NCBI RefSeq assembly: GCF_963678975.1
Contig: NC_089273.1
Coordinates: forward strand, 25,748,356-25,812,355
Direction: 5' to 3'
Origin: Dysidea avara
Taxonomy: Eukaryota; Porifera; Demospongiae; Dictyoceratida; Dysideidae
Length of the DNA: 64,000 bases
A program made the position numbers and the translations under genes. The notes under the pieces were generated by a model, which saw only the letters and a program-made list of their open reading frames with translations, had not been told where the DNA came from and searched no databases. Shown here in pieces: positions 4,273-63,278 of the stretch. The number at the start of each line of letters is the position of its first letter. The first letter of the stretch is position 1.

Positions 4273-4591
4273 CAGGGGCGGATCCAGACTTTTAAAAAGG
4301 GGGGTTCCATTTTTGAATTGTAGCTTCAGCCTAGCTGTAAGTCAAAGACCAAAAAAAAAAAAAAAAAAGGTCATCACCTGCTGACAATAGCTGCCCCTCA
4401 CCATAAATGCCCTCACCAACTACAGTTCCTTATTTATAACTGTATATATTATAGCTTGCTACACTACTCCTCAAAAGACTACGGTGACTGCTCTATTAGA
4501 GTATCTCGATTTGACTGCTCTATTAGAGTATCTCGAGTAAGAGAAGCTCTTTCAAAAAAGGGACCCTTTGAACCCCCCGGATCCGTCCCTG
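4273..4591 (+). mobile_element. MITE family B copy 1, 5-bp TSD CTTAA
   Basis: Termini CAGGGGCGGATCC and GGATCCGTCCCTG are inverted repeats, flanked by CTTAA at 4268-4272 and 4592-4596. The interior repeats the family A plan: GACC-poly(A)-GGTC near 4348-4372, then two copies of the CTCTATTAGAG word at about 4487-4535. Other copies: 12916-13212 and 39520-39834. Confidence 0.8.
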
Positions 4592-13212: not shown

Positions 13213-13243
13213 AAGCCAGTATGTTAACCACACAGAGATCTTC

Positions 13244-14960
13244 TCATCCCTATATGCATGTCTGTGTAACAGTCAGAATAATACCTTCTAAGAGTGCCGG
13301 AGTAATAGGGTCTTTGCTTTGCATTTTATCGACTATTTTGAAGCTATGCATTTTGAGTAATGTGTCAGTCTGGGGTGATTATTCTTTCTTTAGATGCAAT
13401 GCCTATGTAAAAGATTGGTCATACATTGGTCTACATAGTGTTTTTGCATTATATTAGAATATTACTGAACTATCTTTCAGTTTAATTCTAATTGTAAATT
13501 CCGATAAGAATATAGTGAAGTGTTATACTACCTGACTAAACCATACATCTCCTATTATGTCAGTCACAGAGTACTACATTGTGTTGCTGTGTAAGGAATG
13601 CACTGCATCATTAATGATAAACACATCTGAAGCCCCCACATGTGTATTAGCTACATTGCACCCTTCATTTTTTAAAAAGTGCTCTCATAACATCGTCATT
13701 GCTAACAAGCTGTGTAATATAATATAGTATTGATCATGAGTGATTACTACATAATTATGTAATCCATAATTAATTGTTCTTGTTGATTATGAATGGAAGA
13801 GGCCAACTTTTTCTATTGTTACAGTTGTATATGTATGTATTCCTTGGAGATAGTGTGTATAGGTGAGATTACATAGTTATAAAACTAGGTAGGGATTCTT
13901 AACAACTAATGTACACAATCATAAGATTTAGAAATGTACAATAATACACCACTCAGGGGATTCGTAGAATTGATATATGATTGAATATAGCTAAGTTGTG
14001 CATTTATGATATCACAAACTACCACTTTACTTCACATACTGACACTTGTGACATTTTTGCACATTGTCACATGTTAATCTGCATGGGTAAAACAAATTAA
14101 CTTGTTCTACGTGTGGGTACACAAACTCAATGTTTTAGCATCACCACACCATGATGCGTAGTATACTACTGAATCTACACATCACATGGTACATAATTAT
14201 ATATTGTCACACAAAATTGATGGCGCGTGCATGGTTGTGTGTCGCACACGCATTGTCACACCAAAGGCTGATGTCTGTTAAAACTATGAATACTTGAAAC
14301 AGGAATTTATTGTGGTTATGATGTTTATCTACCCTGGTGACTAATACCGTGGTAATGAGATTGGCCATAATTTGAGGTAATACAGTAGCCATAGGATGTA
14401 GCTAGCTATAATTATACAGCTGCTATGTAGTACTCTAATATAACAATGCTATGCTGTACAATGCTACAAAATGCATAGTATTAGTGTTCTGTACCAATAT
14501 GGATTTTGATGGTGATATGGTAGTACTAATTAATTGTACTTGTAATTAAGAGGCACCATCCATTGTATTAAGACTTGCAATACAACAGTTGTGTTTGGAA
14601 AGGAAGGAAAAATGGTTCTATAGGTTCTATACTGTCTTGTTTTGTTGACACTTTAGTGTAAATAATGGAATGTAGCCTGTCTAATGTGTTAGGTAAGATT
14701 GTTGGACAGTTTGTCTCCTGGTTGCCATGCTACCAAGTTTAATGTTTGTGGTGTCAAATTCTAACAATGTACTGGGTGATATTCCCCAATGAAATTTGAT
14801 GAATATACATAATTATACAGCGGTGGATGATTTTGTCTTTTTATGTCTGCTGTGATGTGCTGTTTATCAATTCCATTGTAACACACTTGTATGTATTGCA
14901 CACTAAGCAACCACATGTACATTATGTGAAGTACAAAATGTAGACCTAAGTATGCATGAA
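13244..14960 (+). repeat. Module E, left outer copy (truncated)
   Basis: Begins abruptly at CTCATCCCTATATGCATGTC and continues through ATGCAATGCCTATG, GTTGGACAGTTTGTCTCC and TGTACATTATGTGAAG. It is the inverse of 33510-35186 and, less closely, of 19190-20880. It lacks the ~490-bp end seen in the other copies. Contains the end sequence of the TA-flanked MITE family (14340-14400). Noncoding as far as I can tell. Confidence 0.8.
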
Positions 14961-15009
14961 GTCACTATATACAGCAAAATGGCCTTTTGCCAAAGTTTTG
15001 AGCAAACAA

Positions 15010-15420
15010 TCTATTATTATATAAAGCTAAAATGCTGTCCGTCCGACCGTCACGCTGCTTACTCACCAACTAGGTGTAAATCAACATAATCTGTACTGAT
15101 ATTGAAGCACTCATCATCCAGCTACTCTAAGTTTGTTATCACCAGTTCACGCGTGCTTCCGTTCATTCTCTACAGCGCGTAGAAGGCCAAGGTGTAAAGA
15201 AAACTTGAGCAACATTCTTTTGAAAACCACAGTACATACTGTTCAAGTGGTAGAAGCCCTAACTAGCGTGTAAAAGGTCGTGGGTTCGAATCCATGACCT
15301 CTTACATGACCTGTTGGCATTTTTTCCTTTCTACTCAGCACCTTTTTGTGCACACCTTTTTAAAACATGACTTTTAGCTAGTATCTTGACATGCAAATAG
15401 TCAGGGTGTAAGCCTTTAAA
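15010..15420 (+). mobile_element. tRNA-like SINE S, copy 1
   Basis: A B-box GGTTCGAATCC (15283-15293) lies ~40 bp downstream of an A-box-like TTCAAGTGGTAG (15242-15253), the spacing of a pol III internal promoter. A full tRNA cloverleaf cannot be folded with confidence, so this is a tRNA-derived SINE and not a tRNA gene. Other copies: 17935-18230, 29760-30520 (interrupted), 33040-33400. Confidence 0.65.
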
Positions 15421-15779
15421 AAAGGCCTTTTTGTGCACTTTTGGATAAAAGCGTGAAACTTGGCAAAAAGTTTGTGTGTAAGATAAAGATTATTTTTTGA
15501 TAGGGAGCCACCTCAGATTTGACCTTTGGTGACCTTTACAGGTAATTTAATGTTCAAAAACTGTCAGTTTTTTTCTCTCTATTTCATGTTTGTACGATCC
15601 AAAATCCACAAACTTGGTGTCAAATTGAAGTATTTGCCCTAAAAAATAAGTTGGTTTTTACAGAAAGTCTATAGTTTATTCTGTTCTAAAGTTACAAAGT
15701 TTTTGTGGTAAAATATGCCATTATTGTCTCCCACCCATGCACAATTTGAAATATGTACAGAAAGGTTTACTTTTTCAAT

Positions 15780-16150
15780 ACTTTTAATTTTTTTATTAAG
15801 GCTCTACAGCACAAGTATGAAGGGCTGTAGGACACCCGGTCCTACATCCTGTTGAAATTTGTTGTGTTTGTAAAGTTGGAGACAGGAGAAAAAATCCACG
15901 ACTGGAATGACCTAGGCAGCTGCAGCCTCAAACCTGTAGCCATCCGATTAATGCTCAAATTCTTACAGGAGTCTGCCAGGCAGCCAGGATGTTAAATTTC
16001 ATATATATGTATCCATGGGAACTCTAGAGAGTGACTTATTATCTCAAAGTACCCCAGGTGGAACCAAATGGACATTAGTATATTTATAACAGCACAAGTG
16101 CTGAAGGTCTGTAGGACACCTGGTCCTACACCTTGTTTAATGTTGGTACA
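15780..16150 (-). mobile_element. Two retroposon 3' tails (left arm)
   Basis: On the minus strand two tails are seen: GTAGGACCGGGTGTCCTAC (7-bp stem) followed by a degenerate CAGCAC/GTGCTG hairpin and AATAAA-rich tail at 15790-15845, and the equivalent GTAGGACCAGGTGTCCTAC at 16095-16130. The pair of stem-loops before an A-rich end is typical of LINE/SINE 3' ends recognised by a reverse transcriptase. Mirror copies lie at 32285-32345 and 32575-32645. Confidence 0.6.
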
Positions 16151-16534
16151 TAAAGTGTACTTATTCTGTACAATGATTTGACATGTTAATAGGCATGATA
16201 ATTAGGGATAGATCAATTGACTGCCATGGGTTACATGCCTATGCAGGTCATTATTCTGAATGGCGGGTTTATGTATGAGGTACAATTTGTGTAAATTTTG
16301 CAAATTCTTGATCCACTAAATTTTAGTTGCATTTGCAGAAATTTCTGTTGTATAGACTATTTAGATTATATATGAACTCGCAAATATATACTAGTATCAC
16401 TAATGTTTAGTATCTATCACTGAATAATATTTGAAACCAACCTACAGTATATAATAGTAACTCAGTATATTAGTGCATATCATACTATATAAGCATTGTT
16501 CTTATTATATATTTTAAAGCTATTACTGTGAAAC

Positions 16535-16700
16535 CTCTTTAATTCAACACCTGTATCTAATCCAGAATATCTCTGTAATCTGACACCGTTTGCTGCACCA
16601 ATGAAATATCACTTTGTCTGTTTGATATTGCTTGATAATCCAACACCCTGAACCTGAAACCCCTCTGAATATTTCTAGATCCACCACTAACAGCTATTTT
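16535..16700 (-). mobile_element. Possible pogo/Tigger-like fragment
   Basis: GTGAAACCTCTTTAATTCAACACC at the left resembles pogo-type termini; only part of an element is visible. Its mirror copy is at 31730-31905 and contributes an accidental 89-codon frame. Confidence 0.35.
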
Positions 16701-16739
16701 TACTTTGACCAATGCTGTAACATATATCATATAAATAGC

Positions 16740-17600
16740 TACATATTCAAATTGTGACTGAATTTTACGGCAAGTGTGATACGTATGAAAACCGTGGAGT
16801 GTTAGTGCCTGACTTGATCTTACCATATAATTCTCACTTTAAAGCTTCTTCTTTTCATGATATAATTGTTGGGTTACATTGTGTGTAATAAACAACAATT
16901 GATGTCACTTTATCAGTTACATCATGATCAGTCATAACAAGTATGAAGCCATCATGAGAAACTATCATATGAATTTGTATAGTACTAGTACTTCTAATGT
17001 TAAACATAATCATAAGTGACAACGAGTCATTAAATTGGTATTCAATTTTTTATGCTTCTAGTGCTAATGACAAATCATGTTGTCCATGGATAGTATATCA
17101 ATGGCTTAATTAGTGTGTTTCTATTAAGAACAAAAACATTCATTTGTAGCTGCTTGTCACCATGCTTGTTAAAAACAAAGTAAATGGACACCTTTAGTCT
17201 TCTCTGTATGCATGCATGTCTGTGTAACAGTTAGAACATATGTACCTTATATAAGACTGAGTAGTAGCATGGTTCTTTGCTTTCTGTTTCATCAACTATT
17301 TTAAAACTTTGCATTTTATAGACTATAATGTCAGTCTTGGGTAACCGGACATTCTTTTCTTAGATGCAGTGCTACATATTTAAAAGATCGCTAATCTGGA
17401 TGTCATACATTGTTCTTCATAGTATTTTCACATTGTATTGTGATTTTAAGAAGTTATTGAAATATTGTATCAGTGTAATTCTCATTGTAAGCAAGTAAAA
17501 GCAACAGAATTTTATTCTGATAAGTAGTATAATGCCTGACTTAACTACTAAATCCTTAGTGTGTCAGTCACATTTTGATAGTAGCCACTAGCTACATTCA
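16740..17600 (+). repeat. Module E, diverged internal copy (left arm)
   Basis: Starts TACGGCAAGTGTGATACGTATGAAAACCGTGGAGTG and carries GTCTGTGTAACAGTTAGAA and a degraded copy of the 89-codon frame. It is clearly related to 26690-27400 but with many substitutions and indels. The mirror in the right arm is 30880-31690. Confidence 0.7.
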
Positions 17601-17639
17601 GTGTAAAAATGAAGCATGCCAGATACATCAAATAGGTCC

Positions 17640-17780
17640 CAAAAGTGAAAAAAAAGCCATGACCTAGGCGGGGATTGAACCCAGGTTGGTTATGTTAAGG
17701 GAGGTTCACAAATCGCCACAGTTGTTTATTTGTGGTTTTGACAGGAATGTTACTCAACTTTTCAGTGATCCTTCCCTACA
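17640..17780 (-). mobile_element. Second tRNA-like SINE head (left arm)
   Basis: On the minus strand GGTTCAATCCCCGCC follows CATAACCAACCTG, a B-box-like element before a T-rich run. Mirror at 30690-30790. Too diverged to be a functional tRNA. Confidence 0.45.
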
Positions 17781-17934
17781 CCAGTGCCTTCATCGTCCTA
17801 TAAAGAGTGAACAAAAGCACGTATTGATTTGCTACAACAACACTCGAGTTTCCAGATGATGGGTATATAATTTTGCAAAAGTCCCACGTCGATATATGCT
17901 TTGCATGCCAAGATATGATGAGCTAAAAGTCGTG

Positions 17935-18230
17935 TTTTAAAAAGGTGTGCACAAAAAGGTACTGAGTAGAAAGAAAAAAATATATGCCAACACGTGGATT
18001 CGAACCCACAACCTCTTACACGCTAGTCAGCGCTTCTACCACTTGAACAGTATGTGCTGTGGTTTTCAAAGGAATGTTGCTCAAGTTTTCTCAATTTCTC
18101 TACACCTTTGCCTTCTACGCGCTGTAGAAAATGAACGGAAGCACGCGTGAACTGGTGATAACAATCTTAGAGTAGCTGGATGATGAGTGCTTCAATATCA
18201 GCACAGATTATGTTGGTTCGCGTATAGTAT
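17935..18230 (-). mobile_element. SINE S, copy 2, carrying an apparent transposon excision footprint
   Basis: Inverse of copy 1, with GGATTCGAACCC (B-box on the minus strand, about 17997-18008). At 18086-18101 the minus strand reads AGAGAAAT-TGAGAAAA. The mirror position in the right arm holds a 437-bp element between two AGAGAAAA copies. The duplicated 8-mer with both inner bases changed from A to T is what hAT excision leaves behind. Confidence 0.65.
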
Positions 18231-18231
18231 A

Positions 18232-19140
18232 AAAGCCTAGGCTGCTCCCCATAGAAATTTTGAAAAATTAACATTCTGAGATTATATTTTGGTGGCTATC
18301 TTGGCTGAAATTTGCTGAGTTCAACACTGGAAGAAGTATGAATGCTAATAGTAGCTATATACTGAGCTACATAACAGAATTGGTTAGTATAGTATATCAA
18401 TAAAATTTTAAATAATTAACTTTTTGAGATTGAATTTGGTAGTGATTTTGAATAAATGTTTATGAAACTATAGCTAATTTTTCAATGCAGTATAAGGAAA
18501 TTTTGAAAAATTTACTTTTTGGGAATGATATTGATAGTAATTTTGACTGCCATTCATGAGAAACGTGAATACTCTTTGCAGCATCTAGCTAAACCTAAAG
18601 ATAATAATTACCTCTTTACAACCCAATTTATGATTTAGACAAATAAAGCCAAGGTGGGAAAGTTTTTTATCCATCCACATTTCCGGCTCCAACTAAGTAA
18701 ATGTGTCACTGTTAATTGGTACTTACTCTGTACATACACTACCATCATTATATGACTCTTCTTTACTGCTTTAATTTGCTACCTTTCATCATCATCAGCT
18801 GATTCATCACCAATTACTTCCTTGGTAGACACATGCGGTCTACAGTAGAGGGGGTAGATAATATAGTTCTACATATAAATCTGGCTATAGGAGATTGCAT
18901 ACTTGCAAAATCAACTATCACTTGTTTAATTCTAATTAATGCACACCTCACTAAAGGAATTTTTGAGGATAGTGGGATTAGCTTCCTCTGGGGGATCAAT
19001 TGGCTCGAGAATCATGTTACACCAAGTAAGAATATGTATTACTATGTACTAACTAATGTTTCATGGATGTTCTTTGCTGAGGAGTACTGTAGCTACCTTA
19101 CACTTAGCTAGGCTATCAAGGTATACTAATTTACAAAAAT
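18232..19140. other. Unassigned ~0.9 kb block of the arm
   Basis: Present in both arms (mirror about 28855-29765) but not in the outer half of either inner palindrome. It holds overlapping opposite-strand open frames of 61-92 codons (18814-18999 minus, 18833-19111 plus) with no recognisable motif. A repeated phrase ATCAAGGTATACT occurs at 19110-19165. Confidence 0.4.
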
Positions 19141-19189
19141 TGTTATCAAGGTATACTTCGTATACCCCCGTATACCCTCAATTCGAGCA

Positions 19190-21330
19190 CTGCATGTGGT
19201 TGCTTAGTGTGCAATACATACAAGTGTGTTGCAATGGAATTGATAAACAGCACATCACAGCAGACATAAAAAAAAAAATTAAACCATCTACCACTGTATA
19301 ATTATGTATATTCATCAAGATTCATTGGGGAATATCACCCAGTACATTGTTAGAATTTGACACCACAAACATTAAACTTGGTAGCATGGCAACCAGGAGA
19401 CAAACTGTCCAACAATCTTACCTAACACATTAGACAGGCTGCATTCCATTATGTACACTAAAGTGTCAACAAAACAAGACAGTATAGAACCTATAGAACC
19501 ATTTTTCCTTCCTTTCCAAACACAACTGTTGTATTGCAAGTCTTAATACAATGGATGGTGCCTCTTAATTACAAGTACAATTAATTAGTACCACCATATC
19601 ACCATCAAAATCCATATTGGTACAGAACACTATTACTATGCATTTTGTAGCATTGTACAGCATAGCATTGTTACATTAGAGTACTACATAGCAACTGTAT
19701 AATTATAGCTAGCTACATCCTATGGCTACTGTATTACCTCAAATTATGGCCAATCTCATCACCACCGTATTAGTCACCAGAGTAGATAACATCATAGCCA
19801 CAATAAATGCCTGTTTCAAGTATTCATAGTTTTAACAGACATCAGCCTTTGGTGTGACAATGCGTGTGCGACACACAACCATGCACACACCATCAATTTT
19901 GTGTGGCAATAATTTTTTATAATTATTTATATGATGTGTAGACTCAGTAGTATACTACGCATCATGGTGTGGTGATGCTAAAACATGGAGTTTGTGTACC
20001 CACACGTGGAACAAGTTAATTTGCTTTACCCATGCAGAATAACATGTGACAATGTGCAAAAATGTTGCGCAAGTGTCAGTATGTGAAGTAAAGTGGTAGT
20101 TTGTGATATCATAAATGCACAACTTAGCTATATTCAATCATATATCAATTCTACAAATCCCCTGAGTGATGTATTATTGTACATATCTAAATCTTATGAT
20201 TGTGTACATTAGTTGTTAAGAATCCCTACCTAGTTTTATAACTATGTAATCTCACCTATACACACTATCTCCAAGGAATACATACATATACAACTGTAAC
20301 AATAGAAATAGTTGGCCTCTTCAATTCATAATCAACAAGTCATTACTTAACAATTAATTATAGATTACATATTATGTAGTAATCACTCATGATCAATGCT
20401 TTATTTTATTACGCAGCTTGTTGGCAATGACGATGTTATGAGAGCACTTTTTAAAAATGAAGGGTGCAATGTGGCTAATACACATGTGGGGGCTTCAGAT
20501 GTGTTTATTATTAATGATGCAGTGCATTCCTTACACAGCAACACAATGTAGTACTCTGTGACTGACATAATAGGAGATGTATGGTTTAGTCAGGTAGTAT
20601 AACACTTCACTATATTCTTATCGGAATTTACAATTAGAATTAAACTGAAAGATAGTTCAGTAATATTCTAATATAATGCAAAAACACTATGTAGACCAAT
20701 GCATGACCAATCTTTTACATAGGCATTGCATCTAAAGAAAGAATAACCACCCCAGAATGACACATTACTCAAAATGCATGGCTTCAAAATAGTCGATAAA
20801 ATACAAAGCAAAGAACGTATTACTCACTCTTAGAAGGTATTATTCTGACTGTTACACAGACATGCATACAGGGATGAGTACACCAAAGATGTCTATCTTT
20901 ACTCCAATCACTTTAACCATATATGCATAGCAAGCATGGTGACAAATTACAGATCTAGAGATGAATAAACCTTTTGTTCTTGATAGAAACACAAAAGCCA
21001 TTGATCATATACCCATTCGCATTTTGTCATTTGAACAAAAGAAACTATATTATTATTTATACCAATTTAATGACTCATTGTACATACATTATTATTGTAA
21101 TATCACTGATGATTATAAAAGGACTATGGATTCTCATGATGGCTTCATATTTGTAATGACTGATGTAACTGATAAGGTGACATCACTTGTTGTTTATCAC
21201 ACACAATGTAACTCAACAATATATCATTGACATGATGAAAAGAAGCTTTAAAGTGAGAATTATATGGTAAGATCAAGTCAGGCACTAACACTCCATGGTT
21301 TTCATATGTATATACACTTGCCGTAAAATT
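19190..21330 (-). repeat. Module E, left inner copy
   Basis: Reverse complement of 26690-28800 over its whole length with very few differences. Contains an 89-codon frame at 20961-21230 (starts MNKPFVLDRNTKAIDHIPIR) identical to the frame on the minus strand at 26766-27035 and similar to 35269-35469. Ends with the phrase CACTTGCCGTAAAATTCTG. Confidence 0.85.
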
Positions 21331-25610: not shown

Positions 25611-26684
25611 TATATAGTTATACAACGGCCACGAGTGCTCTGCCTGAAATAAACGCACGAGCCTGAGGGCCGTTAGGCCCGAAGGCAAGTGCGTTTATAC
25701 AGGCAGAGCACGAGTGCACGTTGTATAACTGTTATGTACCACTCACCTAATAGGTGGGGAGAGTCTCACAAGACAGCTGTAACACTTATAAAGGCCAGGT
25801 TTCTAACATTGATTGTGGGTAGCTAACCAAGCCGTACGTTGCGATGACGTTCCTCCTGCAGTACTGCTGCCACCTGAGATATTGAAAGCTAGTACGCTAT
25901 GGGTTATATCGCTAACCTGCATTCGCTGTTCGACTCTCATCATGTAGTGCTCAGCATGCCAGCGTGATCACTCAATCGCCATATAGACTAAGCGCCAGAC
26001 TAATCACCATAGTGATTCTCTTGAGCAAAAAAAAGTAGCTAAATAGATGTTTTAAGTAAACAAAACCTAACTACTAAACGATGCTAGTCTAATTCTTACT
26101 ATTCACACTGGCTAAACTCGAATCAGGTGGCATGACAAAACTGGTTACCACAATCGAACGTAAAGGTTAGTATTATTTAGAATATATTTGCTTTATTGAG
26201 TCATTGTCGAAGTGGGCTACAGTTTAATCTGGGCTAAGATGGCACCAGACTAGTAAGGTGTATAAGTACGTTTATATATATATGTAGACTAGAATTGTGG
26301 TCACCCGTGTTGGATTTTTCGATCGCCATTGGCTGCTTGTAAACATTATACGTATTGGTGACGTTATGGCCCAAAATCGACCTTTACATGTCAGGCTATA
26401 AAAGAATTCGAGTGATCTGTAAAGTGTCTTTCCACCTATTAGGTGAGGTGTCGTAGTGGTCTTCGCCACCAGCACTTGTGCTATGCTGCACAAAACCGCA
26501 GCCAGTGTAATATCTGTATATTGCACTGCGGTCGGTGCATTATAACTTATAATGCACTCGTTGTGGTCTAAAAAACCGCAACCAGTGCGTTGTAAGTTAT
26601 AATGCACTCGCTGCGGACTGCAGCAGTGCAATATACAAATTATGGCACTGGCGGTGCCTTTGAACTGCCCACGCAGAGTGGTAC
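25611..26684. mobile_element. Right-arm-specific 1074-bp insertion
   Basis: The left arm reads GGCAAGTGTATATACATATG without interruption; the right arm is split here, with at most a 2-bp duplication (AT). A hairpin of ~115 bp at 25615-25735 (TTATACAACGGCCACGAGTG pairs with GCACGTTGTATAA) marks one end. A nested pair CACCTAATAGGTGG (25745) and CCACCTATTAGGTG (26429) bounds ~700 bp. The right end has repeated TGCATTATAACTTATAATGCA-type hairpins. No transposase frame. Confidence 0.65.
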
Positions 26685-26689
26685 ATACA

Positions 26690-28800
26690 TATGAAAACCA
26701 TGGAGTGTTAGTGCCTGACTTGATCTTACCATATAATTCTCACTTTAAAGCTTCTTTTCATCATGTCAATGATATATTGTTGAGTTACATTGTGTGTGAT
26801 AAACAACAAGTGATGTCACCTTATCAGTTACATCAGTCATTACAAATATGAAGCCATCATGAGAATCCATAGTCCTTTTATAATCATCAGTGATATTACA
26901 ATAATAATGTATGTACAATGAGTCATTAAATTGGTATAAATAATAATATAGTTTCTTTTGTTCAAATGACAAAATGCGAATGGGTATATGATCAATGGCT
27001 TTTGTGTTTCTATCAAGAACAAAAGGTTTATTCATCTCTAGATCTGTAATTTGTCACCATGCTTGCTATGCATATATGGTTAAAGTGATTGGAGTAAAGA
27101 TAGACATCTTTGGTGTACTCATCCCTGTATGCATGTCTGTGTAACAGTCAGAATAATACCTTCTAAGAGTGAGTAATACGTTCTTTGCTTTGTATTTTAT
27201 CGACTATTTTGAAGCCATGCATTTTGAGTAATGTGTCATTCTGGGGTGGTTATTCTTTCTTTAGATGCAATGCCTATGTAAAAGATTGGTCATGCATTGG
27301 TCTACATAGTGTTTTTGCATTATATTAGAATATTACTGAACTATCTTTCAGTTTAATTCTAATTGTAAATTCCGATAAGAATATAGTGAAGTGTTATACT
27401 ACCTGACTAAACCATACATCTCCTATTATGTCAGTCACAGAGTACTACATTGTGTTGCTGTGTAAGGAATGCACTGCATCATTAATAATAAACACATCTG
27501 AAGCCCCCACATGTGTATTAGCCACATTGCACCCTTCATTTTTAAAAAGTGCTCTCATAACATCGTCATTGCCAACAAGCTGCGTAATAAAATAAAGCAT
27601 TGATCATGAGTGATTACTACATAATATGTAATCTATAATTAATTGTTAAGTAATGACTTGTTGATTATGAATTGAAGAGGCCAACTATTTCTATTGTTAC
27701 AGTTGTATATGTATGTATTCCTTGGAGATAGTGTGTATAGGTGAGATTACATAGTTATAAAACTAGGTAGGGATTCTTAACAACTAATGTACACAATCAT
27801 AAGATTTAGATATGTACAATAATACATCACTCAGGGGATTTGTAGAATTGATATATGATTGAATATAGCTAAGTTGTGCATTTATGATATCACAAACTAC
27901 CACTTTACTTCACATACTGACACTTGCGCAACATTTTTGCACATTGTCACATGTTATTCTGCATGGGTAAAGCAAATTAACTTGTTCCACGTGTGGGTAC
28001 ACAAACTCCATGTTTTAGCATCACCACACCATGATGCGTAGTATACTACTGAGTCTACACATCATATAAATAATTATAAAAAATTATTGCCACACAAAAT
28101 TGATGGTGTGTGCATGGTTGTGTGTCGCACACGCATTGTCACACCAAAGGCTGATGTCTGTTAAAACTATGAATACTTGAAACAGGCATTTATTGTGGCT
28201 ATGATGTTATCTACTCTGGTGACTAATACGGTGGTGATGAGATTGGCCATAATTTGAGGTAATACAGTAGCCATAGGATGTAGCTAGCTATAATTATACA
28301 GTTGCTATGTAGTACTCTAATGTAACAATGCTATGCTGTACAATGCTACAAAATGCATAGTAATAGTGTTCTGTACCAATATGGATTTTGATGGTGATAT
28401 GGTGGTACTAATTAATTGTACTTGTAATTAAGAGGCACCATCCATTGTATTAAGACTTGCAATACAACAGTTGTGTTTGGAAAGGAAGGAAAAATGGTTC
28501 TATAGGTTCTATACTGTCTTGTTTTGTTGACACTTTAGTGTACATAATGGAATGCAGCCTGTCTAATGTGTTAGGTAAGATTGTTGGACAGTTTGTCTCC
28601 TGGTTGCCATGCTACCAAGTTTAATGTTTGTGGTGTCAAATTCTAACAATGTACTGGGTGATATTCCCCAATGAATCTTGATGAATATACATAATTATAC
28701 AGTGGTAGATGGTTTAATTTTTTTTATGTCTGCTGTGATGTGCTGTTTATCAATTCCATTGCAACACACTTGTATGTATTGCACACTAAGCAACCACATG
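26690..28800 (+). repeat. Module E, right inner copy
   Basis: Mirror of 19190-21330. Runs from CATATGAAAACCATGGAGTG to CACACTAAGCAACCACATG. The minus strand carries the 89-codon frame (27035-26766), identical in protein sequence to the left-arm copy. Confidence 0.85.
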
Positions 28801-29765
28801 CAGTGCTCGAATTGAGGGTATACGGGGGTATACGAAGTATACCTTGATAACAATTTTTGTAAATTAGTATACCTTGATAGCCTAGCTAAGTGTAAGGTAG
28901 CTTACTCCTCAGCAAAGAACATCCATGAAACATTAGTTAGTACATAGTAATACATATTCTTACTTGGTGTAACATGATTCTCGAGCCAATTGATCCCCCA
29001 GAGGAAGCTAATCCCACTATCCTCAAAAATTCCTTTAGTGAGGTGTGCATTAATTAGAATTAAACAAGTGATAGTTGATTTTGCAAGTATGAAATCTCCT
29101 ATAGCCAGATTTATATGTAGAACTATATTATCTACCCCCTCTACTGTAGACCGCATGTGTCTACCAAGGAAGTAATTGGTGATGAATCAGCTGATGATGA
29201 TGAAAGGTAGCAAATTAAAGCAGTAAAGAAGAGTCATATAATGATGGTAGTGTATGTACAGAGTAAGTACCAATTAACAGTGACACATTTACTTAGTTGG
29301 AGCCGGAAATGTGGATGGATAAAAAACTTTCCCACCTTGGCTTTATTTGTCTAAATCATAAATTGGGTTGTAAAGAGGTAATTATTATCTTTAGGTTTAG
29401 CTAGATGCTGCAAAGAGTATTCACGTTTCTCATGAATGGCAGTCAAAATTACTATCAATATCATTCCCAAAAAGTAAATTTTTCAAAATTTCCTTATACT
29501 GCATTGAAAAATTAGCTATAGTTTCATAAACATTTATTCAAAATCACTACCAAATTCAATCTCAAAAAGTTAATTATTTAAAATTTTATTGATATACTAT
29601 ACTAACCAATTCTGTTATGTAGCTCAGTATATAGCTACTGTTAGCATTCATACTTCTTCCAGTGTTGAACTCAGCAAATTTCAGCCAAGATAGCCACCAA
29701 AATATAATCTCAGAATGTTAATTTTTCAAAATTTCTATGGGGAGCAGCCTAGGCTTTTACACTAT
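28801..29765. other. Mirror of the unassigned 0.9 kb block
   Basis: Reverse complement of 18232-19190 with isolated changes (for example Cys to Phe in the frame at 29156-28902). No gene recognised. Confidence 0.4.
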
Positions 29766-30520
29766 ACGCGAACCAACATAATCTGTGCTGATATTGAAGC
29801 ACTCATCATCCAGCTACTCTAAGATTGTTATCACCAGTTCACGCGTGCTTCCGTTCATTTTCTACAGCGCGTAGAAGGCAAAGGTGTAGAGAAAATAGGC
29901 TCCGGCCTATTATGCTCAAAATTTTACCTATTATGCTTTTGAGCATTGCTAAAAAATTAAGCCTATTATGCTCAAAATTATACTTTCAAAATTAAGATTA
30001 TGCTCTAGAACTGACTGTTTTATTAGAGTATATCAGCCTTTCCTGACTGCTGTATTAGAGTAAGTGACTGCTGTATTAGAGTATCTCGGTCTTATTTCTG
30101 CAAAGTATGAATAACCAAGAGAGAAACAGTTTAATAAGTTATACTACGTGTTTTTAAATATGAAATGCACTAATAATACTATTGGCAGTGAATATTTGCT
30201 TTCTTTCAGGCGTGCGTATTGCGCATTTTAATTAAATTTTCAAATATCATCCCTACTATGCTGGCATTATGCTTGATGCTTTTGGTCATCTATTATGCTT
30301 TAAATTATGCCGGCATAATCGGCCGGTGCCTAAGAGAAAACTTGAGCAACATTCCTTTGAAAACCACAGCACATACTGTTCAAGTGGCAGAAGCGCTGAC
30401 TAGCGTGTAAGAGGTTGTGGGTTCGAATCGACGTGTTGGCATATACTTTTTTTCTTTCTACTCAGTACCTTTTTGTGCACACCTTTTTAAAACACGACTT
30501 TTAGCTCATCATATCTTGGC
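29765..30520 (+). mobile_element. SINE S, copy 3, interrupted by a 437-bp transposon
   Basis: Same tRNA-like SINE as 17935-18230 in reverse; B-box at 30419-30429 (GGTTCGAATCG, one change from consensus). The body is split at AGAGAAAA by the element at 29896-30332. Confidence 0.65.
29896..30332 (+). mobile_element. hAT-like MITE, 8-bp TSD AGAGAAAA, present only in the right arm
   Basis: Ends TAGGCTCCGGCCTATTATGC and GGCATAATCGGCCGGTGCCTA are imperfect inverted repeats, flanked by AGAGAAAA at 29888-29895 and 30333-30340. The interior has repeated TATTATGCTCAAAATT phrases and three CTGTATTAGAG-type words (30020-30090). It belongs to the ATTATGCT family also seen at 2931-3325 and 40640-40930. 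The homologous left-arm site is empty but carries a footprint. Confidence 0.85.
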
Positions 30521-30689
30521 ATGCAAAGCATATATCGACGTGGGACTTTTGCAAAATTATATGCCCATCATCTGGAAACTCGAGTGTTGTTGTAGCAAAT
30601 CAATACGTGCTTTTGTTCACTCTTTATAGGACGATGAAGGCACTGGTGTAGGGAAGGATCACTGAAAAGTTGAGTAACATTCCTGTCAA

Positions 30690-31690
30690 AACCACAAATA
30701 AACAACTGTGGCGATTTGTGAACCTCCCTTAACATAACCAACCTGGGTTCAATCCCCGCCTAGGTCATGGCTTTTTTTTCACTTTTGGGACCTATTTGAT
30801 GTATCTGGCATGCTTCATTTTTACACTGAATGTAGCTAGTGGCTACTATCAAAATGTGACTGACACACTAAGGATTTAGTAGTTAAGTCAGGCATTATAC
30901 TACTTATCAGAATAAAATTCTGTTGCTTTTACTTGCTTACAATGAGAATTACACTGATACAATATTTTAATAACTTCTTAAAATCACAATACAATGTGAA
31001 AATACTATGAAGAACAATGTATGACATCCAGATTAGCGATCTTTTAAATATGTAGCACTGCATCTAAGAAAAGAATGTCCGGTTACCCAAGACTGACATT
31101 ATAGTCTATAAAATGCAAAGTTTTAAAATAGTTGATGAAACAGAAAGCAAAGAACCATGCTACTACTCAGTCTTATATAAGGTACATATGTTCTAACTGT
31201 TACACAGACATGCATGCATACAGAGAAGACTAAAGGTGTCCATTTACTTTGTTTTTAACAAGCATGGTGACAAGCAGCTACAAATGAATGTTTTTGTTCT
31301 TAATAGAAACACACTAATTAAGCCATTGATATACTATCCATGGACAACATGATTTGTCATTATCACTAGAAGCATAAAAAATTGAATACCAATTTAATGA
31401 CTCGTTGTCACTTATGATTATGTTTAACATTAGAAGTACTAGTACTATACAAATTCATATGATAGTTTCTCATGATAGCTTCATACTTGTTATGACTGAT
31501 CATGATGTAACTGATAAAGTGACATCAATTGTTGTTTATTACACACAATGTAACCCAACAATTATATCATGAAAAGAAGAAGCTTTAAAGTGAGAATTAT
31601 ATGGTAAGATCAAGTCAGGCACTAACACTCCACGGTTTTCATACGTATCACACTTGCCGTAAAATTCAGTCACAATTTGAATATGTAGCT
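30690..31690 (-). repeat. Right-arm mirror of the second SINE head and diverged module E
   Basis: Inverse of 16740-17780. Contains GGTTCAATCCCCGCC (about 30748) and, further right, GTAAGATCAAGTCAGGCAC and CACTTGCCGTAAAATTCAG. Confidence 0.7.
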
Positions 31691-31729
31691 ATTTATATGA
31701 TATATATTACAGCATTGGTCAAAGTAAAA

Positions 31730-31905
31730 ATAGCTGTTAGTGGTGGATCTAGAAATATTCAGAGGGGTTTCAGGTTCAGGGTGTTGGATTATCAAGCAAT
31801 ATCAAACAGACAAAGTGATATTTCATTGGTGCAGCAAACGGTGTCAGATTACAGAGATATTCTGGATTAGATACAGGTGTTGAATTAGAGAGGTTTCACA
31901 GTAAT
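31730..31905 (+). mobile_element. Mirror of the possible pogo/Tigger-like fragment
   Basis: Ends GGTGTTGAATTAGAGAGGTTTCAC. Inverse of 16535-16700. Confidence 0.35.
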
Positions 31906-32279
31906 AGCTTTAAAATATATAATAAGAACAATGTTTATATAGTATGATATGCACTAATATACTGAGTTACTATTATATACTGTAGGTTGGTTTCAAATAT
32001 TATTCAGTGATAGATACTAAACATTAGTGATACTAGTATATATTTGCGAGTTCATATATAATCTAAATAGTCTATACAACAGAAATTTCTGCAAATGCAA
32101 CTAAAATTTAGTGGATCAAGAATTTGCAAAATTTACACAAATTGTACCTCATACATAAACCCGCCATTCAGAATAATGACCTGCATAGGCATGTAACCCA
32201 TGGCAGTCAATTGATCTATCCCTAATTATCATGCCTATTAACATGTCAAATCATTGTACAGAATAAGTACACTTTATGT

Positions 32280-32650
32280 ACCAACATTAAACAAGGTGTA
32301 GGACCAGGTGTCCTACAGACCTTCAGCACTTGTGCTGTTATAAATATACTAATGTCCATTTGGTTCCACCTGGGGTACTTTGAGATAATAAGTCACTCTC
32401 TAGAGTTCCTATGGATACATATATATGAAATTTAACATCCTGGCTGCCTGGCAGACTCCTGTAAGAATTTGAGCAATAATCGGATGGCTGCAGGTTTGAG
32501 GCTGCAGCTGCCTAGGTCATTCCAGTCGTGGATTTTTTCTCCTGTCTCCAACTTTACAAACACAACAAATTTCAACAGGATGTAGGACCGGGTGTCCTAC
32601 AGCCCTTCATACTTGTGCTGTAGAGCCTTAATAAAAAAATTAAAAGTATT
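32280..32650 (+). mobile_element. Two retroposon 3' tails (right arm)
   Basis: GTAGGACCAGGTGTCCTAC at 32297 and GTAGGACCGGGTGTCCTAC at 32583 each form a 7-bp stem. At 32583 this is followed by GCTGTAGAGCCTTAATAAA and an A-rich end. The body upstream of the second (32400-32575, GGATGGCTGC...GGCTGC) matches the split retroposon at 3780-4680. Confidence 0.6.
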
Positions 32651-33039
32651 GAAAAAGTAAACCTTTCTGTACATATTTCAAATTGTGCATGGGTGGGAGA
32701 CAATAATGGCATATTTTACCACAAAAACTTTGTAACTTTAGAACAGAATAAACTATAGACTTTCTGTAAAAACCAACTTATTCTTTAGGGCAAATACTTC
32801 AATTTGACACCAAGTTTGTGGATTTTGGATCGTACAAACATGAAATAGAGAAAAAAAACTGACAGTTTTTGAACATTAAATTACCTGTAAAGGTCACCAT
32901 AGGTCAAATCTGAGGTGGCTCCCTATCAAAAAATAATCTTTATCTTACACACAAACTTTTTGCCAAGTTTCACGCTTTTATTCAAAAGTGCACAAAAAGG
33001 CCTTTTTTAAAGGCTTACACCCTGACTATTTGCATGTCA

Positions 33040-33400
33040 AGATACTATGAGCTAAAAGTCATGTTTTAAAAAGGTGTGCACAAAAAGGTGCTGAGTAGAA
33101 AGGAAAAAATGCCAACAGGTCATGTAAGAGGTCGTGGATTTGAACCCACGACCTCTTACACGCTAGTCAGGGCTTCTACCACTTGAACAGTATGTACTGT
33201 GGTTTTCAAAAGAATGTTGCTCAAGCTTTCTTTACACCTTGGCCTTCTACGCGCTGTAGAGAATGAACGGAAGCACGCGTGAACTGGTGATAACAAACTT
33301 AGAGTAGCTGGATGATGAGTGCTTCAATATCAGCACAGATTATGTTGATTTACACCTAGTTGGTGAGTAAGCAGCGTGACGGTCAGACGGACAGCATTTT
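33040..33400 (-). mobile_element. SINE S, copy 4
   Basis: Inverse of 15010-15420. At 33124-33158 GTAAGAGGTCGTGG pairs perfectly with CCACGACCTCTTAC around the decayed B-box. Confidence 0.6.
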
Positions 33401-33509
33401 AGCTTTATATAATAATAGATTGTTTGCTCAAAACTTTGGCAAAAGGCCACTTTGCTGTATATAGTGACTTCATGCATACTTAGGTCTACATTTTGTACTT
33501 CACATAATG

Positions 33510-35640
33510 TACATGTGGTTGCTTAGTGTGCAATACATACAAGTGTGTTGCAATGGAATTGATAAACAGCACATCACAGCAGACATAAAAGACAAAATCA
33601 TCCACTGCTGTATAATTATGTATATTCATCAAATTTCATTGGGGAATATCACCCAGTACATTGTTAGAATTTGACACCACAAACATTAAACTTGGTAGCA
33701 TGGCAACCAGGAGACAAACTGTCCAACAATCTTATCTAACACATTAGACAGGCTGCATTCCATTATTTACACTAAAGTGTCAACAAAACAAGACAGTATA
33801 GAACCTATAGAACCATTTTTCCTTCCTTTCCAAACACAACTGTTGTATTGCAAGTCTAAATACAATGGATGGTGCCTCTTAATTACAAGTACAATTAATT
33901 AGTACCACCATATCACCATCAAAATCCATATTGGTACAGAACACTAATACTATGCATTTTGTAGCATTGTACAGCATAGCATTGTTACATTAGAGTACTA
34001 CATAGCAACTGTATAATTATAGCTAGCTACATCCTATGGCTACTGTATTACCTCAAATTATGGCCAATCTCATTACCACGGTATTAGTCACCAGGGTAGA
34101 TAAACATCATAACCACAATAAATTCCTGTTTCAAGTATTCATAGTTTTAACAGACATCAGCCTTTGGTGTGACAATGCGTGTGCGACACACAACCATGCA
34201 CACGCCATCAATTTTGTGTGACAATATATAATTATGTACCATGTGATGTGTAGATTCAGTAGTATACTACGCATCATGGTGTGGTGATGCTAAAACATGG
34301 AGTTTGTGTACCCACACGTAGAACAAGTTAATTTGTTTTACCCATGCAGAATAACATGTGACAATGTGCAAAAATGTCACAAGTGTCAGTATGTGAAGTA
34401 AAGTGGTAGTTTGTGATATCATAAATGCACAACTTAGCTATATTCAATCATATATCAATTCTACGAATCCCCTGAGTGGTGTATTATTGTACATTTCTAA
34501 ATCTTATGATTGTGTACATTAGTTGTTAAGAATCCCTACCTAGTTTTATAACTATGTAATCTCACCTATACACACTATCTCCAAGGAATACATACATATA
34601 CAACTGTAACAATAGAAATAGTTGGCCTCTTCCATTCATAATCAACAAGAACAATTAATTATGGATTACATAATTATGTAGTAATCACTCATGATCAATA
34701 CTATATTATATTACACAGCTTGTTAGCAATGACAATGTTATGAGAGCATTTTTTTAAAAAATGAAGGGTGCAATGTAGCTAATACACATGTGGGGGCTTC
34801 AGATGTGTTTATTATTAATGATGCAGTGCATTCCTTACACAGCAACACAATGTAGTACTCTGTGACTGACATAATAGGAGATGTATGGTTTAGTCAGGTA
34901 GTATAACACTTCACTATATTCTTATCGGAATTTACAATTAGAATTAAACTGAAAGATAGTTCAGTAATATTCTAATATAATGCAAAAACACTATGTAGAC
35001 CAATGTATGACCAATCTTTTACATAGGCATTGCATCTAAAGAAAGAATAATCACCCCAGACTGACACATTACTCAAAATGCATAGCTTCAAAATAGTCGA
35101 TAAAATGCAAAGCAAAGACCCTATTACTCCGGCACTCTTAGAAGGTATTATTCTGACTGTTACACAGACATGCATACAGGGATGAGTACACCAAAGATGT
35201 CTATCTTTACTCCAATCACTTTAACCATATATGCATAGCAAGCATGGTGACAAATTACAGATCTAGAGATGAATAAACCTTTTGTTCTTGAAAGAAATGC
35301 AAAAGCTATTGATCATATATCCATGAACATTTTGTCATTTGAACAAAAGAAACTATATTATTATTCATACCAATTTAATGACTCATTGTACATACATTAT
35401 TATTGTAATATCACTGATGATTATAAAAGCATTATGGATTCTCATGATGGCTTCATATTAATTTTGTAATGACTGATGTAACTAATAAGGTGACATCACT
35501 TGTTGTTTATCACACACAATGTAACTCAACAATATATCATTGACATGATGAAAAGAAGCTTTAAAGTGAGAATTATATGGTAAGATCAAGTCAGGCACTA
35601 ATACTCCATGGTTTTCATATGTATATACACTTGCTGTAAA
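33510..35640 (-). repeat. Module E, right outer copy (most complete outer copy)
   Basis: Inverse of 13244-14960, continuing ~490 bp beyond the point where the left copy stops (35186). This extra part carries a third, diverged 89-codon-type frame (35269-35469, 66 codons, early stop). Sequence resembling the next part of the module resumes at 36235 after a MITE, showing that the MITE inserted into module E. Confidence 0.8.
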
Positions 35641-40541: not shown

Positions 40542-40968
40542 GCATATTACTTACTGAAAAAGTTAACGTGTTACACATTACTCACTACTCTGAGGGCTGT
40601 AACTAGTAATAATATTACATATTACATTTGGGCATAATAGGTAAAATTTTTGAGCAGTGCAGCATATATAGCATAGCTAAAATTTTGAACATAATAGGCA
40701 GGTCCCTACTAGTTTGTAACTTTATTTTCATTGTCAAACTAGCTAGCTAAAGTTACATATTACTTACTGAAAAAGTTAACGAGTTACACATTACCCACTA
40801 CTCTGAGGGCTGTAACTAGCTAGTAATAATATTACATATTACATTTGGGCATAATAGGTAAAATTTTTGAGCAGTGCAGCATAGCATAGCTAAAAATTTG
40901 AACATAATAATAGGCAGGTCCCTACTAGTTTGTAACTTTATTTTCATTGTCAAACTAGCTAGCTATAC
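40542..40968. repeat. Tandem duplication, two ~213-bp units
   Basis: CATATTACTTACTGAAAAAG opens both units (40542 and about 40755), and both end with CAAACTAGCTAGCTA. The units contain AATAGGTAAAATTTTTGAGC and AATAGGCAGGTCCCTACTAG, i.e. a copy of the ATTATGCT-family MITE was duplicated with its host sequence. Confidence 0.8.
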
Positions 40969-56900: not shown

Positions 56901-59900
56901 CAGACTGTAGGACCAGGTGTCCTACAGATCTTCAGCACTTGTGCTGTAAAGCCTTAATAAATAAAAAATAAACTTGTAGTGCAAACAGTTTCAACAGAAA
57001 AAACAGGTAGAATAATGACATCATGGTAGCCAAAAGGGAAAATCACACCTCATAAAACATTAGCATTGTTAATTAGTAATGTTATCATACATTACTGTAG
57101 TAATATTATCATACATTACTGTAGTAATATTAGCATATTGATGGCAACAGTGTTATAATTTTCATTATAGAGTGTGACCTGAATGGTACAAAGGTTCAAG
57201 AAGGTACTGAGATACAACCTAACTGCTCTAGCCGTTGTGTATGTACTAAGCGAGAATTTCAGTGTGAAACACAAACTTGTTTGGTTGATGGAACAACTTG
57301 TATAGCTGCAGGAGATCCTTACTACCAAACATTTGATTTCAATTACTATGAGTTTCAAGGAGATTGTGAATATGTAGTTTCTACCCCATGTGACAGTGAC
57401 GAGTTTAGCATTTCTGTTAGATATTCATCTAAAAATGCCTATATCTCATCTGCAGATCAAGTGACAGTTTCTGTTCCAGGAGATGGAGTAACTGCAGTAT
57501 TGGGAAGGGGTGGTGGTGGAACAATTACAGTCAATGGTGTTCTAGAGTCTGATGTTAGTGTCGGTGTCATTTATCAGTCAGATAAAGTGCAAGTACTGAG
57601 AGTTGGTGGACATCCACAAGTTGTACTTCTTGAGCAACAGATTACCATATTTTATGATGGCATAAATCGTGTTGCCATTTCTACCTCTACCATGTGGCAA
57701 GACAAACTGTGTGGACTATGTGGTAACTACAATGGTGATCCAACAGATGACTTCATGGATCAAGGTGGTAATCCACTTGCCACAGCAGATGAGTTTGCTA
57801 GTAGCTGGACTACAGGGGACACAACCACTTGCAGCAAACTCGAAGAAGCACCAATTTGTGTAGGACACATAAGGGAAGAGGCCACCAAGAGATGTAGTTT
57901 TCTGAATGGTGAATTTTTTCAACCATGCCATGCAGCAGTTGATCCCCAATCATTTGAAGATTACTGTGTGCTTGATTTCTGTAACTGTGTTGATGATGAC
58001 AAAAATGTATGTTTCTGTTCAAGCCTGTCTACGTATGCATCAGCTTGTTCTTATGCTGGAGTGCAACTTGATGACTGGAGATCTTATTATGGATGTTGTA
58101 AGTTTAAGTTTTGCTGTAACAGTAGCAGCTAATACAGTACCTGTGAAGGCATTGTAGAATAATACTTATTATGGTTTTGGCACTAAAATGTATGCAAATG
58201 TATGAAACACAAAATGGAATTAGCTTGTACTGTATCACATGCATCAATTGTGTGTCTTGATTTTTAGCTGATGGATGTCCAGCTGACATGACATTCCAGC
58301 AATGTGGTTCATTGTGTCCTCAGTCATGTGATAGTACTGATGCAACTTGTCATAGTGGATGTGCTGAGGGATGCTTTTGTCCTGATGGACAAATTGTCAA
58401 CCAAGACAGGGAATGTGGTGACTTTATGCCTTGTCCAGGTGAGTAATTTGTAATTGAAGATGAATTCAACTGTAAATCATGAAATTTTTGCACCAACAAA
58501 TCTTCACAAAGGGTTTAAAGTGTTTTGTTGGAGCAAAAGTTCACCAACTGCCCATTTTCAGCTGAAAATATTAAATGCAAAATTCAAGTGTTGAAATTGT
58601 ATTTAAAAAGCTATATGGATAAAATGAACCAAACACTGTCAGTCTCACATTTGCCTGTAAAATATCTAAAGCTGACTAATAAAAATTTTACTGTTAAGCG
58701 TTTTCTTGAGACAGAAATAATTTTGTACCTTTAAAAGATTTACATACTGTATACTAGAACATAGTATAATAAATAGAGTTGAAGCAATAAATCTCCTACA
58801 CTAATAGTAGCTATCAATGGCCATTCATCAGGTTTGTCCATATGTTCAAAAGTCTTCACAATGTGTATACTGTCAAAACATTGCTTTGAAATACTAATCA
58901 ACCCAACCTAGGTCAGTGTCCAGTACTTACTGATCCTGATAATGGAATGGTGGACTGTTCACTGGGAGATGATGGAGTACCAACTGAAGGAGACACTTGT
59001 ACTTACCAGTGTGATGATGGTTATGAGTTGTCTGGTGATATGATGAGGGAATGTCAGAGTGATGGAACATGGACTGGTAGTGATCCTACTTGTGATCTAG
59101 GTGAGAATTACAGGTAGCTGATCAAATTAATCTACATACGGTACCGTTTAAATGCAATGTCATCTTGCGAGAGTGTGAGCAATTTAAAAACCTCACTGTG
59201 GCACCTGTTTCACGCATGAGTATTCATCCCATACAAAACAGGATGAATACTTGTGAGTGAAACAGGTACCAAATTGCAAGTTTTTAAATCTCTACCTCTG
59301 GAGAGACAATGTTGAAGTTGAGCGATACTTTAACATGATACTGTATTTGACATTATACTAATGTGTATTATAGTAATTCAAATATGTATGACTATCACCT
59401 TAGTATGCTTACTGTATTTCAGTGGTACAATGTCCCACACTCACTGCTCCTGATAATGGAATGATTTCTTGTACTGGTAATGAGGTTGGAGACACTTGTA
59501 CCATCTCATGTGATGATGGTTATGAATTGGGTGGTAATGAAACTAGGACCTGTCAGGGTGATGGTACTTGGAGTGGAACTGATGCTACTTGTTCAGCAGG
59601 TATACAAATAACCCTGGATAAAATATTTATAATTCTTAAGTTCATTATATCCACATACGTCTGTCTCTATGCCATATCAAGATTAACTTTCATTGATTTT
59701 CTCCAATATAAAACATCGGTTATACACTAATCTCTCATATTTACTTGTGTATTTCCTAATTATAATCTATTTACTTTGTGATTGTTGGTACTGTATGAAT
59801 AAAGTTGTGGTTTTATCTTTCACTAGTTCAATGTCCCACACTCACTGCTCCTGATAATGGAATGATTTCTTGTACTGGTAATGAGGTTGGAGACACTTGT

Positions 59901-62754: not shown

Positions 62755-63278
62755 GTATAAAATGACCCCGGTTATGTCTTAAGTTTATTATATCTGTATA
62801 ATTACACGTGTTACTTCTATTTCAATTCCACATCAAGATTACCGTGTTTATATTTCAATGTATATACCACTTTTACACTTCAAAGGGAACAGAAGGTGTC
62901 CAAGATCAGATGTCATTACAGTTCAGGGAATGCATTAATGAGAAACAGAGCCTCCTAGAATTGATGTATATATGATATACTACCTCTATTTCTCATTAAT
63001 ACAGCACACCCATGCTCAAAGCTCCCATGTCGTTATGCCCCAGTAACACCTTTCCAATGTTGTTATTTTTATTCATGATCAAAATTTACATGGCCAACCT
63101 GCAGTTTCCCATGCACTAATACTCATGTGATAAGTATGTACTACTTGAATTTGGCCATGAAAACCACTTAGACAGAAAGCGTTTGTTATCCTTGCTATTC
63201 TATGCTATTATAGAACTTTGCATGGGCAAGATCAAAGGAAAAAGTGCACTCTCAGCCAGCCAACAGTGCTTCATCGAC

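Follow-up and report, generated by a model that had tools for sequence, protein, structure and literature searches.

In this work, we describe two arms of a large inverted repeat in the genome of Dysidea avara, one of which holds an intact 437-bp transposable element, while the other carries at the same position a short altered sequence from which the element was very likely excised. What is shown by the genome and by the 64-kb window, that is, the whole stretch of DNA that was analysed, comprises the sequences of both sites, their target duplications, how rare the altered site is, and an order of ages that fits. The best explanation overall, in which we have high confidence, is that a MITE was inserted, that the locus came to consist of two arms, and that an excision from the left arm, probably of the hAT type, left a footprint behind.

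An element in one arm and an altered site in the other

The initial annotation of this DNA had reported a 437-bp element between two copies of AGAGAAAA in the right arm, and AGAGAAAT-TGAGAAAA with no element in the left arm (Table 1). Both readings held; the coordinates are exact, and the observation is correct to the single base. The minus strand of the left arm at 18086-18101 reads AGAGAAATTGAGAAAA, the element is absent there, and the arms are identical at the site except for the element and the two middle bases. When the arms are paired, they align in two pieces, an outer one (13243-18092 vs. 35186-30334, 99.05% identity) and an inner one (18095-21315 vs. 29894-26681, 99.66%), and the footprint/element site is the junction between them. 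Both other SINE S copies of the window had been described as bearing a single site, and this is indeed the case (AAGAAAA and AAGAAAG, without AGAGAAAA). The stretch GGTTCGAATCC in SINE S is presumably a tRNA B-box-like one; ARAGORN found no tRNA, and the nine Rfam matches obtained for 13000-36300 were each under the gathering score of their family and were taken as chance.

Table 1. Positions of the altered site, the element, the SINE S copies and the arms in the window.
Feature	Position	Strand	Basis
Very likely excision footprint AGAGAAAT-TGAGAAAA in left-arm SINE S	18086..18101	-	Sequence read; once in genome (up to 3 mismatches, 10 bp flank)
Target-site duplication AGAGAAAA, left of element	29888..29895	+	Sequence read
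437-bp non-autonomous hAT-like element (MITE), TAGGCTCC...GGTGCCTA	29896..30332	+	Sequence and genomic copies
Target-site duplication AGAGAAAA, right of element	30333..30340	+	Sequence read
SINE S copy holding the footprint; contains GGTTCGAATCC	17900..18218	-	
Right-arm SINE S copy, split by the element	29771..30527	+	
Left-arm second SINE S copy, single site AAGAAAA	15079..15397	+	
Right-arm second SINE S copy, single site AAGAAAG	33029..33350	-	
Inverted repeat, left arm	13243..21315	+	
Inverted repeat, right arm, 8,506 bp including the element	26681..35186	-	

The arms were read from the assembly alone, and assembling 8-kb inverted repeats is difficult, so one might ask whether the inverted arms or the absence of the element are assembly errors. 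This is highly improbable, as the arms differ by 43 substitutions over 8,048 compared bases (footprint excluded), and errors of this kind are not expected to generate so specific a product as the footprint.

The altered site occurs once in the genome

The shape of the footprint (inner six bases repeated, with complements of the outer bases at the two middle positions) is by itself weak evidence, because 16-mers of this shape are common by chance: there are 12 per strand in the window, or 24 in the 127,970 positions of both strands. What gives the footprint its weight is that it lies exactly opposite the intact element, in the same register, that it is built of the element's own 8-bp target, and that it is the sole lengthened site in 205. 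Genome-wide, the exact flanks AAGGTGTA and CTTGAGCAACATTC were found at 205 places, counting only the S copies whose flanks are unmutated, and 204 of these have 3-7 bases between the flanks (controls, 0); the spacer is 7 bases long in all the short-site places listed but one. The left arm is the only exact-flank place with 8-38 bases between (1 of 205; controls, 0). A search that tolerated three mismatches, using the 26-mer composed of the footprint and 10 bp of flank, gave a single occurrence in the 550.8-Mb genome. The extra 8 bp were likewise absent from all 29 other S loci examined, including five (L032-L036) that are 93.6-95.4% identical to the left-arm copy, as well as both other copies of the window. 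The initial annotation had named never-filled S copies with the footprint string as the observation that would speak against an excision, and the genome-wide check, which covered S copies with exact flanks and, for the 26-mer, up to three mismatches, revealed no such copy.

The filled site is just as solitary. In genome searches allowing up to three mismatches, the right arm was the only place where both junctions of the filled site were found. The left junction matched two places, the right arm exactly and a place on C6 with three mismatches; the right junction also matched two, the right arm exactly and a place on C3 with three mismatches. The two weaker matches were considered as further MITE insertions at the same S site and rejected, since C6:24373698 has no right-junction match and C3:19606481 has no left-junction match. 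Each being one-sided, they leave the two arms as the only altered sites found, and one insertion followed by one excision explains both the lone filled site and the lone footprint.

One could instead imagine local slippage in a left arm that was never filled, with an 8-bp tandem duplication and two point changes arising independently, and the chance 16-mers of the same shape counted above (12 per strand in 64 kb) show that such strings do exist. For slippage to be the cause, however, the duplication would need to reproduce the target of the element in the exact register, at the one place of 205 that faces the only filled copy found, and both middle bases would need to become their complements, which makes this reading scarcely credible beside an excision.

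The element belongs to a family of MITEs with 8-bp target duplications

The ends of the element, TAGGCTCCGGCCTATTATGC and TAGGCACCGGCCGATTATGC, are equal at 18 of 20 positions and thus represent short terminal inverted repeats. With at most one mismatch, the end pattern occurs 392 times in the forward and 384 times in the reverse orientation in the genome; the reversed-pattern control gave 0. Among the 100 ends listed of these 776, 31 of the 34 adjacent end pairs span 395-461 bp. The longest stop-free stretch of the element in six frames is only 47 codons, and there are at least 39 other genomic copies with 94-96% identity among the best 40 scored of 3,701 candidates. The element is therefore a high-copy MITE: short, uniform in length and devoid of coding capacity.

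Other TAGGC...GCCTA elements with 8-bp target duplications, a check proposed in the initial annotation, were found. All 30 copies examined, which include the window copy and were picked by similarity to it among the best 40 scored of the 3,701 candidates, are flanked by such duplications, exact in 27 and with one mismatch in 3. The target preference is weak, with T at position 2 in 16 of the 30 copies. Three end pairs are much longer, namely C1:58087505-58094855 (7.35 kb), C1:14171355-14173143 (1.79 kb) and C2:348845-350840 (2.0 kb); they are candidates for longer or autonomous relatives, or else nested insertions.

Probable hAT-type excision from the left arm

In the hAT model, as for Hermes, the first nick is made in the flank, one base away from the element, and the flanking end is then sealed as a hairpin. 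When the hairpin is opened beside the odd base, the left target copy ends, and the right one begins, with the complement of the original base. Applied to AGAGAAAA, this model predicts AGAGAAATTGAGAAAA, exactly the string observed at this one site. Most probably, the non-autonomous hAT-type MITE of 437 bp was inserted once into a SINE S copy, duplicating AGAGAAAA, and the locus would then have come to be present twice, as inverted arms, whether it was duplicated with the element inside or the element was copied from one arm to the other. A transposase acting in trans would have cut the element from the left arm, each flank being sealed as a hairpin whose tip lacked the outermost base of one strand. 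Opening of the hairpins would change the left flank from ...AGAAAA to ...AGAAAT and the right flank from AGAG... to TGAG..., and the opened flanks, once joined end to end, would yield AGAGAAAT-TGAGAAAA. The transposase, the hairpin chemistry and the end joining are steps that we infer from the product. In the accessible part of a study of Ac/Ds in Candida, the complement of the base adjoining the transposon ends is described as lying at the centre of the footprints, a pattern ascribed to hairpin opening and end joining (PMC5873905), and a similar explanation appears for the TcBuster footprints in the corresponding part of PMC3499496. The reading of the left-arm site as a signature of hAT hairpin repair, made in the initial annotation, is thus supported both by the agreement of the footprint with the hairpin prediction and by the 8-bp target duplications of the MITE family.

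The sequence data make a hAT type probable for this MITE, and the label of a hAT source rests on the target length and the form of the footprint. The usual, though not universal, hAT terminal motif carries A and G at positions 2 and 5, respectively; the terminus TAGGC shares the A but has C in place of the G. The hAT dimerisation domain is abundant in the genome (150 matches scored of 1,875 candidates), and several of the matches lie in open frames of more than 600 codons. The ends of the element were found within 1.5 kb of none of the 30 hAT-domain loci examined among these 150, and none of the DUF4371 matches (150 scored of 427) was linked to the family. No hAT-domain or DUF4371 match among those listed falls inside the three long end pairs.

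The targets of Mutator-like, P and Merlin elements are also about 8 bp long, though P-element excision leaves staggered ends that retain bases of the transposon. An excision by one of these superfamilies is improbable, but it draws on the facts that an 8-bp target is not exclusive to hAT, that TAGGC matches the hAT consensus incompletely, and that no transposase was linked to the MITE family among the 30 hAT-domain loci examined and the DUF4371 matches listed. For the Mutator-like Muta1, with target duplications of 8 or 9 bp, excision is described as mostly precise in the accessible part of PMC5225508, unlike the left-arm site, which, as a single case, keeps both target copies with two middle-base changes. 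Moreover, the swap to complements is the mark described for hAT excision in the available portions of PMC5873905 and PMC3499496.

A second footprint was sought at the repeat around the insertion L029, where no place among the 100 listed of 189 had the length of a duplicated target: 98 places have 26 bases, one has 27 and one 29. The empty sites corresponding to L014, L015, L023, L024 and L029 were considered as footprints as well, and at 65-88% identity they proved too diverged to call. In L029, the pre-insertion sequence CCTAGCTT exceeds the common form by 4 bp. Many of the places listed for this repeat (100 of 189) form pairs on opposite strands with a spacing of about 2.5-3 kb, a pattern suggestive of a further dispersed element that bears inverted repeats.

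Timing of the insertion and the excision

The paralogues at C4:13.47 Mb and C2:24.70 Mb have a clean single site, so the insertion should have followed their split from the arms. At 4,381 distal sites, 75 differences from C4 are common to both arms, while the arms differ from each other by 34 (19 private to the left and 15 to the right), i.e., about 0.39% per arm. The element departs from the consensus of 29 other copies at 18 of 437 positions and from its own subfamily (nine copies) by 15 differences; nine of its changes are private, being found in none of the 29 copies. At the arm rate, the 437 bp would be expected to have gained 1.7 changes from the separation of the arms onwards (Poisson tail 7e-5) and 4.6 from the split with the paralogues onwards (tail 0.044), so that the nine private changes exceed the latter value too. 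The source copy may already have carried some of them; L008, L010 and L028 have 8-10 singletons each. The comparison of nine private changes with 1.7 expected favours an insertion before the arms separated, and the excision would have come after both arms held the element.

The divergence of the arms is uneven. With the footprint base 18094 omitted, there are 39 substitutions in 4,841 compared bases of the distal part and only 4 in 3,207 of the proximal part (Fisher p 1.3e-5). The best break is at 18353, some 260 bp away from the footprint; the side facing the centre has 2 substitutions in 2,962 bp and the outer side has 41 in 5,110 bp, and none of 2,000 random placements was as extreme. In the comparison with C4, the proximal part does not lag behind (31 common differences in 1,334 vs. 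75 in 4,381 distally), and the regions just inside and just outside are also alike against L032 (13 in 1,019 vs. 12 in 840), L035 (17 in 1,018 vs. 18 in 1,180) and L036 (21 in 1,024 vs. 26 in 1,475). This combination of uneven arm divergence with similar divergence from other loci makes a recent gene conversion near the centre of the palindrome likely.

Gene conversion also bears on the order of events. The element may have been inserted in one arm when both arms already existed, copied across by conversion and then excised from the left one. We regard this route as possible, though clearly the less probable one. The uneven homogenisation of the arms, with a proximal part no slower against C4, speaks for it, and the nine private changes vs. 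1.7 expected suggest an older insertion, unless they were inherited from the source copy. Even then an excision would have occurred, only the insertion would not be older than the arms. The presence of the element in the common ancestor of the arms, as claimed in the initial annotation, is therefore the simplest history, but arm-to-arm conversion would leave the same sequence.

We may also suggest, quite tentatively, that since the excision the mismatch between 437 bp and the 16-bp footprint has been a barrier to conversion between the arms. If this is true, the palindrome has been homogenised from its centre up to the footprint and has been diverging outward of it. On an arm of 8,073 bp, the chance that a break falls as close as 260 bp to the footprint is about 6%, so the barrier remains a suggestion.

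Repeats around the arms

The arms are part of a dispersed repeat, whose end sequence occurs elsewhere as inverted pairs 7-18 kb apart (C4:13467370-13474605, C2:24694882-24702115, C8:26747494-26758406 and C12:17439796-17457751). Within the left arm, 13243-14917 is inversely paired with 20878-19193 (95%). The arm repeat may be a long-inverted-repeat mobile unit carrying SINE S twice. Its left outer end departs from the family at 13243, which looks like a point of rearrangement or truncation; the other three ends in the window run into a common flank, TACACCAAAG..., matching about 473 bp between 20879 and 35187. The copies C4:13468136-13474257 and C2:24695646-24701767 are 99.95% identical over all 6,122 bp compared, as would be left by a very recent duplication or transposition.

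Several other repeats were seen in the window. A tandem pair at 40543-40965 consists of units of about 210 bp that are 93% identical, each with a degenerate relative of the element terminus (...CATAATAGGCAGGTCCCTA in the first). The right inner flank contains about 1.07 kb (25611-26680) that is missing from the left arm and has self-complementary stretches inside. A repeat block with a period of about 400 bp, whose copies are about 91-98% identical, occupies 59417-60405 and 62142-62794.

Discussion

The case described here is a clear and well-preserved example of a known process, and it leaves the knowledge of hAT transposition unchanged. Fossil excisions are hard to read because the prior state is usually not visible. 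Here, a filled copy, a footprint and about 200 short-site copies in one genome allow the insertion, the formation of the arms and the excision to be put in order from the sequence. The excision suggests that this MITE family was still mobile, in the sense of being excised, once the element was present in both arms, so a transposase would have been active on that time scale. In addition, the footprint/element pair can serve as a marker in tracing how a large inverted repeat evolved. We found no paper in the literature that combines a footprint with paralogy or segmental duplication, although printed cases may exist.

Among known systems, the maize elements Ac/Ds, as studied in Candida, are alike in being hAT, in having footprints centred on the complements of the bases bordering the element, and in the model of hairpins and end joining; they differ in that the excisions were induced in experiments, giving 28 different footprints in 128 revertants, as given in the accessible part of the report (PMC5873905), whereas in Dysidea avara a single natural event is read from the genome, where the unexcised copy lies alongside. 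TcBuster in human cells, according to the available portion of PMC3499496, is also a hAT element with inserted bases complementary to the flanks at the joint and with hairpins and end joining, but it was studied in a plasmid experiment with the complete transposon system. The Drosophila element Mar, a hAT MITE, resembles our element in being short and non-coding, in having 8-bp targets and in the elusiveness of its autonomous source; it differs, in the available text of PMC3517528, by the target consensus nnnTAnnn and the ends CAG(G/A)GGTAGGC. Unlike Mar, the 30 element copies show no target consensus of the nnnTAnnn kind. The same portion quotes hAT terminal inverted repeats of 5-27 bp, and the words footprint and excision are absent from the Mar text (PMC3517528). 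There is also a likeness in arrangement to the maize p1 repeats, where a hAT-like element with an 8-bp target occupies one of two copies of a large repeat but not the other; in the accessible part of PMC3014980, a late insertion is described, and the word footprint is absent from the text, whereas in the sponge it is the empty copy that bears the footprint.
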